Assembly (NCBI GenBank): GCA_003551865.1
Contig: PUNU01000184.1
Location: 1 to 14,290 of the forward strand
DNA length: 14,290 bases
Direction of reading: 5' to 3'
Source of the DNA: Syntrophomonadaceae bacterium
Lineage (GTDB): Bacteria; Bacillota_D; Dethiobacteria; DTU022
The notes under the pieces are model-generated. The model was not told the origin of the DNA. It made no database searches and worked only from the letters and a program-made list of their open reading frames with translations. Below are positions 779-8,799 of the stretch, one piece after another (within the stretch, counting starts at the first letter, position 1; the number at the start of each line of letters is the position of its first letter). The position numbers were made by a program, and so were the translations under genes.

Positions 779-832
779 CATTATTATGGTTTGGTTTTTT
801 ACCGACTTACTTTTATGAGGAGGGAATTAAAC

Positions 833-1681
833 TTGGAGATCAGTAAGATAGCAGTACTGGGAGCGGGGCAGATGGGAAGCGGTATCGCCCAGGTAGCTTC
901 CGCTTCCGGCTATGAAGTGAGCATGCTTGATGTTTCCGAAGAAGTTTTGGAAAAAGGAATGGAGAGTATTAGCAGCAGTTTGAGCCGCTTCGTCAAGGCC
1001 GGCAAAATCAAGCAGGAAGAAGTTGAAGAGATTTTAGATAGAATATCAACTACCACTGTTATGGTCGAGGCAGTGAAAGATGTCCAGCTGGTCATTGAAG
1101 CGGTACCCGAAAACCTTAAACTTAAGAAGAATATCTTTGCCGAGCTGGGAGCTTCATGTGAAGAAGAAACAATCCTGGCCAGCAATACCACAGAGTTGAG
1201 CATAACCGATATAGCTTCAGCTACTTCCTGTCCGGACAGAGTAATCGGCATGCACTGGTTTAACCCGGCCCCGATCATGAAGCTGATTGAGATTGTGGCC
1301 GGAGTGGATACTTCGGAAAAGACGATCCAGTCAATCCAGATAGTTTCCCGGAAAATGGGTAAAGAAACTGTTTTGGTTAAGGATGCCCAGGGGTTTGTGA
1401 CCAGCCGGGTCCTGGCGGCCCACATGATGGAGTGCATGCGGGTGCTGGAAGAAGGTGTAGCCTCTGCTGAAGATATCGACAAGGCCGTAAAACTGGGGTT
1501 AAACTACCCAATGGGGCCTTTTGAGCTGGCCGATTATGTCGGACTTGACACCCTGCTTTTTGCTTCTGAAGGGATGACTGAGGCCTATGGAGATCGCTTT
1601 CGAGCACCGCAGGTAATGAGAAAGCTGGTGGAAGCCGGTCACCTGGGACGCAAAACCGGCCGGGGATTCTACAGCTATTGA
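833..1681 (+). CDS. hbd: 3-hydroxybutyryl-CoA dehydrogenase (TTG start)
   Basis: This NAD(P)-dependent enzyme interconverts acetoacetyl-CoA and 3-hydroxybutyryl-CoA in butyrate formation or beta-oxidation. The frame is open from 791, but AGGAGGG at 818-824 sits 8 nt before a TTG at 833. That start gives 282 residues, the usual Hbd length, and puts the Rossmann strand at the N-terminus. Visible motifs are the dinucleotide loop GAGQMG (10-15), SNTT with Ser118, MHWFNP with catalytic His141, IEIV with Glu153, and a C-terminal 3HCDH domain (about 184-282, NYPMGPFELADYVGLD). One oddity: the GF(I/V)VNR motif of the family reads GFVTSR, so Ser191 takes the place of the usual catalytic-site Asn. The gene stands alone, with no crotonase or thiolase beside it. 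Its TGA stop is part of the repeat that follows. Confidence 0.93.
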   Translation: MEISKIAVLGAGQMGSGIAQVASASGYEVSMLDVSEEVLEKGMESISSSLSRFVKAGKIKQEEVEEILDRISTTTVMVEAVKDVQLVIEAVPENLKLKKNIFAELGASCEEETILASNTTELSITDIASATSCPDRVIGMHWFNPAPIMKLIEIVAGVDTSEKTIQSIQIVSRKMGKETVLVKDAQGFVTSRVLAAHMMECMRVLEEGVASAEDIDKAVKLGLNYPMGPFELADYVGLDTLLFASEGMTEAYGDRFRAPQVMRKLVEAGHLGRKTGRGFYSY

Positions 1682-6293: not shown

Positions 6294-6387
6294 AACAGTT
6301 AAAAAAAGCACCTTAATGAGAACGAGGGGCTGGAAAGCACAATACAGCTAATTTGAAAGTTCATATATCCTTATCAATCCCGGGGCT

Positions 6388-7731
6388 TTAACCTGCCACA
6401 AGGATCCAGATGATCATAGCCGCCAACAAAGCAGTAATTACAATATTCCAGATCCATAAAGTTTTTAACGGCGATTTTGTTTCTTCTTCTTTTCTTTCCA
6501 GCTGTTCTGTAAGTTTTGCTATTTCCCTTTTCAACTCCCGGCTTGAGTCTTCTTCCCGGTGAGCATCAGCGCGGCTGACAACAGTCGTACTTTGAGAGCC
6601 ATGTTGAGCGCTTATTTCCGCGCCTGTTGATTTGCTTTTTTCTGTCGCTGTTTCGCCAAAATGAGCCTGTGCTTTTTCGTCTTCTTTCAATTCCCCGGCC
6701 GTTTTTTGTTCTTCCGATATGCTGTCGTCATACTGGGCCTGGATCTCGTCGTCTTTCCATTCACCTGTATACTTTCTCCCGTCTGCATTGATCATAGTTC
6801 CCTGGCCGTGTTTTTTGTCGTTTTCCCAATTGCCGATATATTTTTTCCCGTCCGTATAAATCATGGTCCCATAACCGTGTCTTTTGCCTTCATATCTTGT
6901 CCCAATGTATTTTAATCCGTTTAGATATAACATAATTCCCGGACCTTGTATCCTGTCGTCTTTCCATTCACCAATATATCTTTCGCCGCCGGTATAAACC
7001 ATTGTTCCCTGGCCGTGTCTTTTTCCGTCTTTCCATTCACCAATATATTTTCTTCCGTCCTGCCAGGAGATTATTCCATGTCCATTTGGCCGGTCATTAT
7101 CTGATGCAAGGAGATCTTTAAAATCGTCTGCGTTGATCCTGATTTCTTCACCATGCCTTTTACCGTCTTTCCATTCACAAAATAGGATGTTTCCGCTGGC
7201 ATAGATAATGGTTCCCGGGCCGTTTCTTTTACCGTTTCTCCATTCACCGATGTATTTGCCAACATAGGTATCTTCATCCCAAATTGTCATAACGCCCTGT
7301 CCGTTTCTCTTGCCTTCCTTAAATTCCCCGACATATTTTCTATTACCCGGCCAAAATATCATTCCCTGGCCGTTGGGCTGATCTTTTTCCCATTCGCCAA
7401 TATATTTTGCTCCATCCGGCCTGGTCCAGGTGCCGTAACCATTTCTCAATCCATTTTTGTATTCGCCTTCGTACTTGCTTCCATCTCGCCAGGTTATTAC
7501 TCCCTGACCATGAGGTTGGTCGCTTTCCCACTCTCCAACATACTTTCTTCCATCGGCGTAAATCATTGTGCCATGACCGTGTTTCATGCCGTTTTTAAAT
7601 TCACCTTCGTACTTACTTCCATCTTCACGGGTCATGGTCCCGTAGCCGTCTGTTTTACCCTCTTTCCATTCGCCGACAAATTTTCTTTTTTCCGGGAACA
7701 GATAAACTCCTTGATTTACTCCCTTATTCAT
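6388..7731 (-). CDS. MORN-repeat protein with coiled-coil linker and C-terminal membrane anchor
   Basis: The protein has 447 residues. Residues 7-332 form 14 consecutive units of about 23 residues with the MORN pattern (G-x-G-T-M-x-x-x-D-G-x-K-Y-x-G-E-W-K-x-x-x-x-x-G). Unit 7 (145-171) carries 4 extra residues, and unit 9 (195-217) has lost the motif (EEIRINADDFKDLLASDNDRPNG). A low-complexity Glu/Lys/Ala/Thr region (about 333-385) and a charged heptad-like stretch (about 390-420) follow. The protein ends in one 22-residue hydrophobic segment (426-447) with only Ala-Gly after it. No signal peptide is present, so it looks tail-anchored with the repeats in the cytoplasm. MORN repeats form elongated beta-sheets that bind lipids or proteins; the role here is unknown. 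AAGGTGG (complement of 7738-7744) is 6 nt before the ATG. A GEMM-I riboswitch in the leader implies c-di-GMP control. Confidence 0.9.
   Translation of the reverse strand: MNKGVNQGVYLFPEKRKFVGEWKEGKTDGYGTMTREDGSKYEGEFKNGMKHGHGTMIYADGRKYVGEWESDQPHGQGVITWRDGSKYEGEYKNGLRNGYGTWTRPDGAKYIGEWEKDQPNGQGMIFWPGNRKYVGEFKEGKRNGQGVMTIWDEDTYVGKYIGEWRNGKRNGPGTIIYASGNILFCEWKDGKRHGEEIRINADDFKDLLASDNDRPNGHGIISWQDGRKYIGEWKDGKRHGQGTMVYTGGERYIGEWKDDRIQGPGIMLYLNGLKYIGTRYEGKRHGYGTMIYTDGKKYIGNWENDKKHGQGTMINADGRKYTGEWKDDEIQAQYDDSISEEQKTAGELKEDEKAQAHFGETATEKSKSTGAEISAQHGSQSTTVVSRADAHREEDSSRELKREIAKLTEQLERKEEETKSPLKTLWIWNIVITALLAAMIIWILVAG
6736..7713 (-). repeat. Fourteen degenerate ~69-bp coding tandem repeats (MORN units)
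   Basis: The in-frame units of 23 codons (27 codons in unit 7) are diverged at DNA level but keep phrases such as GGNCARGGNAC and GAATGGAAA. The array is an old internal duplication within the MORN gene rather than a recent DNA repeat. Confidence 0.85.
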
Positions 7732-7893
7732 ATTTTTCCACCTTCCCCAGCGATATAGATTTGAAATTTTTCTGGTTGATTGTTTCTATCGGTTTTAGTG
7801 ACTTGTGTTTATATCATGGCTGCTGTTTGTGCAAATCAGTTTAATTTTTATTAACTTCAAAAGCCTGATAAATCGTGATTAAAGACAAAAACA

Positions 7894-7992
7894 ACCCATT
7901 TTGGCAACCCGGCAATCATAGCTCTCGAATAAGAGCATTAGACCCGTGGCTTTGCGTCCTCGCCTTTCAACGAGTTTGCCTTTTTCATTGGG
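7894..7992 (-). ncRNA. Cyclic di-GMP-I (GEMM-I) riboswitch upstream of the MORN-repeat gene
   Basis: Read on the minus strand, the conserved blocks occur in order: GGCAAAC (complement of 7974-7980); stem P2 CUCGUU/GGCGAG closed by a GAAA tetraloop (7965-7968); GGACGCAAAGCC (7948-7959); GGGUCUAA (7938-7945, tetraloop-receptor side); P3 hairpin GCUCU/AGAGC (7921-7936); UAUG receptor side; and GCCGGGUUGCC (7903-7913). The outer P1 uses CCCA (7989-7992) with UGGG (7895-7898). Known members bind c-di-GMP in this three-helix fold. The conserved guanines of the GGCAAAC strand are kept, which fits c-di-GMP rather than the cGAMP-selective variants, though that is inferred. About 160 nt separate it from the start codon. 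I cannot resolve a clear terminator or sequestering stem there, so ON or OFF control is not decided. Confidence 0.93.
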
Positions 7993-8033
7993 TTTTTTTA
8001 TGTCTTTTTAATTATGTCCCCTATATATGTAAT

Positions 8034-8062
8034 ATTATATGATTTTAAAAAGATTATGTCAA
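8034..8062 (-). promoter_or_regulatory. Consensus sigma-A promoter of the riboswitch/MORN transcript
   Basis: On the minus strand TTGACA (complement of 8057-8062) and TATAAT (complement of 8034-8039) are exactly 17 bp apart, both boxes perfect. Transcription would begin near 8027, about 35 nt before the riboswitch and about 295 nt before the start codon. Confidence 0.88.
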
Positions 8063-8280: not shown

Positions 8281-8799
8281 CTAAAGCTGTTTCGGTTCTA
8301 TGCCTTTTTCCAGTAAAATTTCTGCAACCCATCTGGCGGTTTTCCCCGCTACATCTGTGCACTTGTCATCATGTCCTCCGTCTGCTTCAAATTTTTGGTA
8401 TTCTTCTTTATCCCACAGGTTATAAGAGCGGCCCATTTTTTTATGCTGAACGTCATGGCAAATCACACTTCCAAATTCATCGACGAATTTATTGCGGAGT
8501 TCTTTTGATAAAAAGAAATTCTTAAAGTGCCTGCCGCCTTGCCCGAATTCTTTTCGTTCTCTGCCAAACTGACTGCTGATCGCGGCAATGCCGCCAACCA
8601 GGGCTCCGCAGGTTCCATCACCGCAGAGGGCTCCGCCGGCTGCAAAGGAGTGAACTGCTTTAATAGTTGCATCGTCAATAAAATCAAAATAATCCTTGAT
8701 TGCCGAGAGGACCGCCTGAGGACATGATCCATATTTGCCTTCATACTCGTAAGCCCGGTTGTAGATTTCTTCCAGCAGTTTTTCTTTGTCAACCTCCAT
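8281..8799 (-). CDS. C_GCAxxG_C_C family putative redox-active protein
   Basis: The product has 172 residues and is predicted soluble. It shows the spaced cysteines of this small family: GSC at Cys26, the core ALCGDGTCGALVGG with Cys59 and Cys64 in a glycine-rich loop, VICHD with Cys114, and DKCTD with Cys147 near the end. The family is common in anaerobes and is thought to be redox- or metal-active, often near electron-transfer genes; its biochemical reaction is not established. AAGGAG (complement of 8809-8814) lies 9 nt before the ATG. It is transcribed toward the MORN gene, but the strong promoter at 8034-8062 makes that gene independently expressed. It diverges from the ArsR regulator; a shared operator region is possible, though its own promoter is not obvious. 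Confidence 0.85.
   Translation of the reverse strand: MEVDKEKLLEEIYNRAYEYEGKYGSCPQAVLSAIKDYFDFIDDATIKAVHSFAAGGALCGDGTCGALVGGIAAISSQFGRERKEFGQGGRHFKNFFLSKELRNKFVDEFGSVICHDVQHKKMGRSYNLWDKEEYQKFEADGGHDDKCTDVAGKTARWVAEILLEKGIEPKQL

Follow-up and report, generated by a model that had tools for sequence, protein, structure and literature searches.

A c-di-GMP-I riboswitch upstream of a tail-anchored MORN-repeat protein gene and its conserved neighbours in a Syntrophomonadaceae bacterium and seven relatives

Organization of the locus

The window analysed here is a stretch of 14,290 nucleotides from a Syntrophomonadaceae bacterium (contig PUNU01000184.1 of assembly GCA_003551865.1). It carries a promoter, a c-di-GMP-I riboswitch aptamer and, behind them on the same strand, genes for a tail-anchored MORN-repeat protein, a FadD-like acyl-CoA ligase and a roadblock-fold protein.

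8034..8062, minus strand: sigma-A-type promoter TTGACA-17-TATAAT, 12 of 12 consensus matches
7989..7995, minus strand: P1 5' strand (AAACCCA), read from leader folds and alignment
7900..7990, minus strand: c-di-GMP-I (GEMM-I) aptamer, RF01051 match over the full model (1-87)
7893..7898, minus strand: P1 3' strand (UGGGUU), read from leader folds and alignment
7886..7892, minus strand: U-tract GUUUUUG directly 3' of P1; U-tract there in 7 of 8 leaders
7738..7748, minus strand: probable ribosome-binding site GGGGAAGGTGG, read directly; purine-rich box at the same place in the aligned leaders
6388..7731, minus strand: MORN tail-anchored protein, 447 aa, open reading frame; PF02493, E 4.1e-72; 8 orthologs
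6724..7680, minus strand: MORN array, aa 18-336, 14 repeats by repeat pattern; 63% mean pairwise identity in 8 orthologs
6541..6723, minus strand: variable charged linker, aa 337-397; 22% mean pairwise identity in 8 orthologs
6469..6540, minus strand: probable short coiled coil, aa 398-421, by eye; 40% mean pairwise identity
6391..6462, minus strand: C-terminal transmembrane segment, aa 424-447, by hydropathy; hydrophobic in 8 of 8 orthologs, 46% identity
4459..6183, minus strand: FadD-like acyl-CoA ligase, 574 aa; PF00501 and PF13193
3851..4234, minus strand: roadblock-fold protein, 127 aa, without Pfam or NCBIfam match

The original prediction placed a GEMM-I aptamer behind a perfect sigma-A promoter, and both elements were recovered. 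A cmscan search with RF01051 gave a minus-strand match of 90 bits (E 3.3e-17), where the gathering score is 35. Among eight promoter-like sites in the window (5.0 in shuffled sequences), the one at 8062-8034(-) is the sole perfect match, and 11 to 12 of 12 matches with an identical 17-nt spacer recur in seven of the eight ortholog leaders, the exception being that of G042 with 9 of 12. The aptamer ends 168 nt before the MORN start codon. When the leader was used as a DNA query against plasmids, 34 records were obtained, and the best place covers 26% of the query, inside the aptamer.

The leader residue that, by alignment, we take to be equivalent to Vc2 G20 is a G in all eight leaders. In one study, an A20G exchange is reported to switch selectivity from cGAMP to c-di-GMP (PMC6456294), and judged by residue 20 the aptamer is likely of the c-di-GMP rather than the cGAMP type. 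A cGAMP switch was considered for the window aptamer and rejected because this residue is G.

The MORN protein matches PF02493 with 234.3 bits (cut-off 22.5). Its repeats start at aa 18, 41, 64, 87, 110, 133, 160, 183, 206, 229, 252, 275, 298 and 321; 12 are clear, the one at aa 206 is degenerate and the one at aa 321 is half a repeat. The count of 14 uses a pattern devised for this analysis, while Pfam gives eight stretches that pass alone. Kyte-Doolittle hydropathy in 19-residue windows peaks at aa 427-445 (mean 2.53), and no such window starting before aa 400 exceeds 0.26. The predicted 14 repeats and C-terminal anchor are thereby confirmed. The charged coiled coil that had also been proposed is a probable one at aa ~398-421, read by eye. 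The difference in identity between array (63%) and linker (22%) points to a conserved MORN array on a variable tether.

A homolog search with the whole protein was dominated by MORN proteins (5078 of 7969 scored candidates, with 120 listed), and no gene context was gained. A query with aa 388-447 yielded none of 55 candidates at E<=10 and did not recover the protein itself either, and no inference was drawn from it. In PHROGs, the MORN protein matches one family of unknown function.

Two other features of the window are recorded here. The gene at 8281-8799(-), upstream of the riboswitch promoter and on the same strand, encodes a redox-type protein of the C_GCAxxG_C_C family (TIGR01909, 47.8 bits vs 47.4). 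A long inverted repeat at 1677-1769 lies between converging 3-hydroxyacyl-CoA dehydrogenase and SppA genes; microRNA-type matches to both strands of this stretch fell below the family cut-offs and were discarded.

Recurrence of the riboswitch-MORN pairing

All comparisons use the genomes of relatives, and seven orthologs together with the window give eight loci. A scan of genome contigs detected 59 MORN loci, two of which (L001 and L002, from Syntrophomonadaceae drafts) match residues 2-445. Both carry RF01051 upstream, and the 12 other loci scanned alongside carry none. In the order to which the L001 genome belongs, some MORN match (E<=1e-10) is present in 48 of 71 genomes, seven of which reach at least 442.9 bits; the next relative in that order scores 165.8 bits. 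A class-wide search with all eight orthologs returned the identical seven among 97 genomes at E<=1e-60.

The original prediction raised the question of recurrence in homologues, and the riboswitch precedes the MORN gene on the same strand in all eight full-length orthologs (the seven relatives and the window), at a distance of ~140 to 300 nt from the start codon that varies with the start chosen. Of the outcomes named as refuting that prediction, a missing RF01051 hit and homologues never led by the riboswitch were both looked for and not observed. RF01051 was found upstream of none of 47 other MORN loci (0/12 in the first set, 0/20 in the same order, 0/15 elsewhere). The reach of this control is restricted in that some loci start at a contig end, the same-order loci include only 1500 nt of sequence before the matched part, and many of the loci belong to phyla in which the riboswitch may be uncommon. 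The control comprises 27 of the 57 loci from the contig scan that are not orthologous and 20 of the 23 such loci of the same order.

The genes behind MORN

The acyl-CoA ligase gene follows the MORN gene on the same strand at all eight loci, and an intact roadblock-fold gene of ~125 codons follows the ligase gene at six. In G037 the third gene contains two stops, and in G014 a BCCT-like transporter gene stands behind the ligase gene instead (by N-terminal resemblance; the L001 gene is BCCT by Pfam). Because both genes are conserved on the same strand, the view of the MORN gene as the sole gene led by the riboswitch probably leaves out part of the unit. The riboswitch probably controls the two neighbouring genes as well, and we read the locus as an operon whose three genes would share one transcript.

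It is also conceivable, if unlikely, that the riboswitch acts on the MORN gene alone, as originally proposed, and that the ligase and roadblock-fold genes are mere neighbours with promoters of their own. The gap between the MORN and ligase genes measures 204 nt in the window and 291 nt in G014, and each of these two gaps contains a hairpin, in the window an imperfect one before U7 (~6300-6332, -4.0 kcal/mol), in G014 one of -10.0 kcal/mol with a poor U tail. Furthermore, G028 and G029 (L173 and L172) have ligase and roadblock-fold genes side by side with neither MORN nor RF01051. These hairpins and MORN-less pairs, together with the other gene in G014 and the stops in G037, weaken the operon reading. 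On the other hand, the MORN-ligase gene order is constant at all eight loci, the gap shrinks to ~50-75 nt in G017 and G042, and a hairpin-plus-U scan found no strong terminator in seven of the eight gaps.

The ligase contains AMP-binding and AMP-binding_C domains. None of the best 25 of 108 NCBIfam models reaches its cut-off (best 494.9 vs 1116), and PRK06187 scores 437.6 against 476; we therefore call the protein FadD-like only. An identity as crotonobetaine/carnitine-CoA ligase was dropped (260.5 bits vs 651). In another reading, the MORN scaffold might hold the ligase at the membrane, where it would activate incoming fatty acids in settled cells under regulation by the roadblock-fold protein. 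Its position as the constant second gene is consistent with such a role in fatty-acid uptake, as is the 3-hydroxyacyl-CoA dehydrogenase encoded in the window (791-1681) and at L162 82-954 and L170 1949-2869 (by N-terminal resemblance). However, the neighbouring genes vary between the islands, near which no transporter for fatty acids was recognised, and the ligase scores below every cut-off among those 25 models; we consider this explanation improbable.

The third protein was assigned by fold comparison, which revealed an alpha-beta-beta-alpha-beta-beta-beta-alpha roadblock fold. Three members of the family gave no Pfam match up to E 10, and PHROGs holds no family for the window protein. A family profile searched against PDB sequences gave three matches (E 0.39-0.89), none of them roadblock, so that the roadblock identity is seen by fold comparison alone. 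PF03259 was matched in 0 of 11 genomes, with the controls matched in 3 of 14. G002 and G040 carry further paralogs led by a c-di-GMP-I or c-di-GMP-I-GGC switch, which counts in favour of the proposed c-di-GMP-controlled unit. A role as GAP for MglA was dropped because no GTPase of MglA size was seen with PF00025, the one GTPase model used on the 11 draft genomes; its 20 listed matches lie in frames of 352-712 aa. In the database protein P0197, the roadblock-fold family is fused to DUF4388 (PF14332).

Expression platform and switching direction

The closing pair of P1 is A-U in the window and in G014 and G-C in five other leaders, a two-sided change as counted by eye. In five of the eight leaders, a hairpin pairs the aptamer 3' end with the P1 3' strand and is followed by U. 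Its energy was reached by 5 of 300 shuffles for G001, 3 for G002, 0 for G037 and 10 for G038, and by 22 for G017, which is marginal. The corresponding hairpin was no better than shuffles in the window (158/300) and in G014 (129/300), and the G042 leader has a separate downstream terminator of -16.3 kcal/mol. Since the terminator of the five leaders is built from the aptamer 3' end and the P1 3' strand, aptamer and terminator are mutually exclusive there. In most relatives, c-di-GMP binding would block the intrinsic terminator and increase expression. For the riboswitch family we lean towards this ON logic, which draws on the leaders of the relatives rather than on that of the window and is weakened by the shuffle-level values in the window and G014 and the marginal one in G017.

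The window switch itself could operate in the opposite direction, with c-di-GMP closing P1 and P1 acting as the terminator by way of its 3' strand, which continues directly into the U-tract. When the window and G014 transcripts are truncated behind the U-tract, which adjoins P1, their minimum-energy folds contain P1. Nevertheless, P1 surrounds the entire aptamer and would make a poor terminator loop, the overlapping terminators of five relatives are of the ON type, and the full window leader favours another long-range pairing over P1. This leader folds no better than shuffles (z -0.99; 26/200). Taken with these points, an OFF switch in the window seems rather unlikely.

Other c-di-GMP-I switches in related genomes

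Searches of 11 genomes yielded 65 RF01051 matches, 64 of them above the cut-off. The downstream region was examined for 41 of the 65, and 38 of these have an open reading frame, including five MORN genes and one roadblock-fold gene. Twenty-three downstream proteins, a few of them the second listed frame, were scanned against Pfam; eight had no match above the cut-off and 15 did. The latter comprise sigma-70 regions (3), transglutaminase-like proteins (2), DUF7305 (2) and one each of camelysin M73, prepilin peptidase A24, PocR/PAS, PAS-GGDEF, TadE, a pilin N-methylation motif, RCC1 and glucosaminidase. The earlier expectation that GEMM-I switches govern, among others, pilus and adhesion genes is in line with the pilus and surface-type genes behind this riboswitch class in the related genomes.

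In G042, a gene for a PilB/GspE-like ATPase with an MshEN domain (TIGR02538, 609.9 bits vs a cut-off of 675.65) precedes the MORN island, and a riboswitch-led sigma factor and a riboswitch-led pilin come after it. This arrangement favours a link of the MORN island to pili, a link weakened by the fact that pilus genes adjoin one of the eight islands.

Several additional arrangements were observed. The 9.4-kb contig L166 of G042 has two more c-di-GMP-I aptamers (861-2625), one before a SigB/F/G-like sigma factor and the other before a type IV pilin, suggesting a c-di-GMP-controlled sigma factor adjoining pilus genes. Sigma-70-region proteins of similar size are encoded directly behind c-di-GMP-I aptamers at L067 1653-2363 (G001) and L130 1728-2441 (G014). 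Tandem c-di-GMP-I aptamers lie ahead of a single secreted-looking protein at L062/L068, L110/L120, L111/L118 and L113/L129; the two such proteins tested, at L062 and L110, are transglutaminase-like by Pfam. Finally, L177 8743-8842 (G038) matches the pyrrolysine insertion sequence of mtbB (RF02509, 43.3 bits vs 36) and adjoins two neighbouring same-strand reading frames.

A possible c-di-GMP-controlled membrane platform

The aptamer, the promoter and the gene order are present at the locus and conserved among its orthologs. As a whole, the earlier interpretation stood for the aptamer, the promoter, the anchored MORN protein and the recurrence upstream of homologues, and was probably too narrow in naming a single gene. 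To the reading that a c-di-GMP-I riboswitch leads a clade-specific operon, whose MORN, FadD-like ligase and roadblock-fold products act as a membrane platform, we give about an even chance. The operon is supported by the riboswitch-MORN pairing (8/8 vs 0/47), the ligase gene (8/8), the intact roadblock-fold gene (6/8) and the promoter (7/8). The MORN array would lie on the cytoplasmic face, held by the C-terminal transmembrane segment via the variable tether, and would recruit the ligase and roadblock dimers to the membrane; judged from sequence, we see no simpler way to read the gene set. Such a platform might assemble when c-di-GMP pushes cells towards surface-attached, piliated life. This ON and surface-life reading draws support from the overlapping terminator in five of eight leaders and from the genes that other riboswitch copies lead, among them those for a pilin, a prepilin peptidase, TadE, GGDEF, a sigma factor and surface-type proteins.

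A bolder and doubtful proposal is a Ragulator-like hub, in which a c-di-GMP-switched, junctophilin-like MORN scaffold, MglA-independent roadblock dimers of an undescribed kind and the acyl-CoA ligase would set the local membrane lipid state and the site of pilus or adhesin assembly as cells settle.

With its invariant riboswitch-gene pairing, the locus singles out three functionally uncharacterised proteins as a joint c-di-GMP output and would tie a common bacterial lifestyle signal to membrane-associated proteins, in an uncultured bacterium and seven relatives. It also opens a way into bacterial MORN proteins and brings to light a family of roadblock-fold proteins missed by the sequence libraries used in the search. 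A laboratory host is enough for testing it, and the organism need not be cultured.

Comparison with known systems

With the RF01051 class, the window aptamer shares a full-length match far above the cut-off and the G at the selectivity position, and the leaders of relatives continue into a predicted terminator that would exclude the aptamer. In the papers searched, we found no MORN, acyl-CoA ligase or roadblock output. No paper joining MORN repeats to riboswitches or to type IV pili was found there, and among the matches listed for roadblock, c-di-GMP and riboswitch none concerned roadblock proteins by title. Most subscription journals lay outside the search, which makes these negatives a weak guide to what has been published. 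One paper combining MORN repeats with c-di-GMP was found; it concerns Campylobacter Cj0423-Cj0425.

The pilM GEMM-I switch of Geobacter metallireducens is reported to be an ON switch in which aptamer and terminator are mutually exclusive (PMC9262584). As in pilM, the terminator of five of the eight leaders takes the aptamer 3' part and the P1 3' strand. In contrast to pilM, which senses cGAMP, the window family has the G of the c-di-GMP type at residue 20 (PMC6456294; residue mapped by alignment); moreover, the window and G014 are without this stem and the terminator of G042 is separate.

MglB and Roadblock/LC7 proteins share 12-16% identity with the roadblock-fold protein, which lacks a PF03259 match, and no MglA-sized GTPase was seen with PF00025 in the 11 draft genomes.

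The MORN repeats of three eukaryotic MORN1 proteins are reported to serve as dimerising protein-protein modules (PMC7725318). Long MORN arrays are common to these proteins and the window protein, whose best solved matches are MORN1. A tail anchor is not among the MORN1 features quoted there, whereas the window protein is tail-anchored and riboswitch-led.

Junctophilin is described as combining a MORN block split by a degenerate part, a helical part, a divergent linker and a C-terminal tail anchor (PMC8934682). The window protein has the same order of parts, its helical part being read by eye, and solved junctophilin chains appear among the MORN matches. It differs in being bacterial, with 14 repeats, a far shorter tail and no second organelle membrane, and outside the MORN repeats the likeness is one of plan, not of sequence. 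The window protein may thus be said to work like a junctophilin by analogy rather than by membership.
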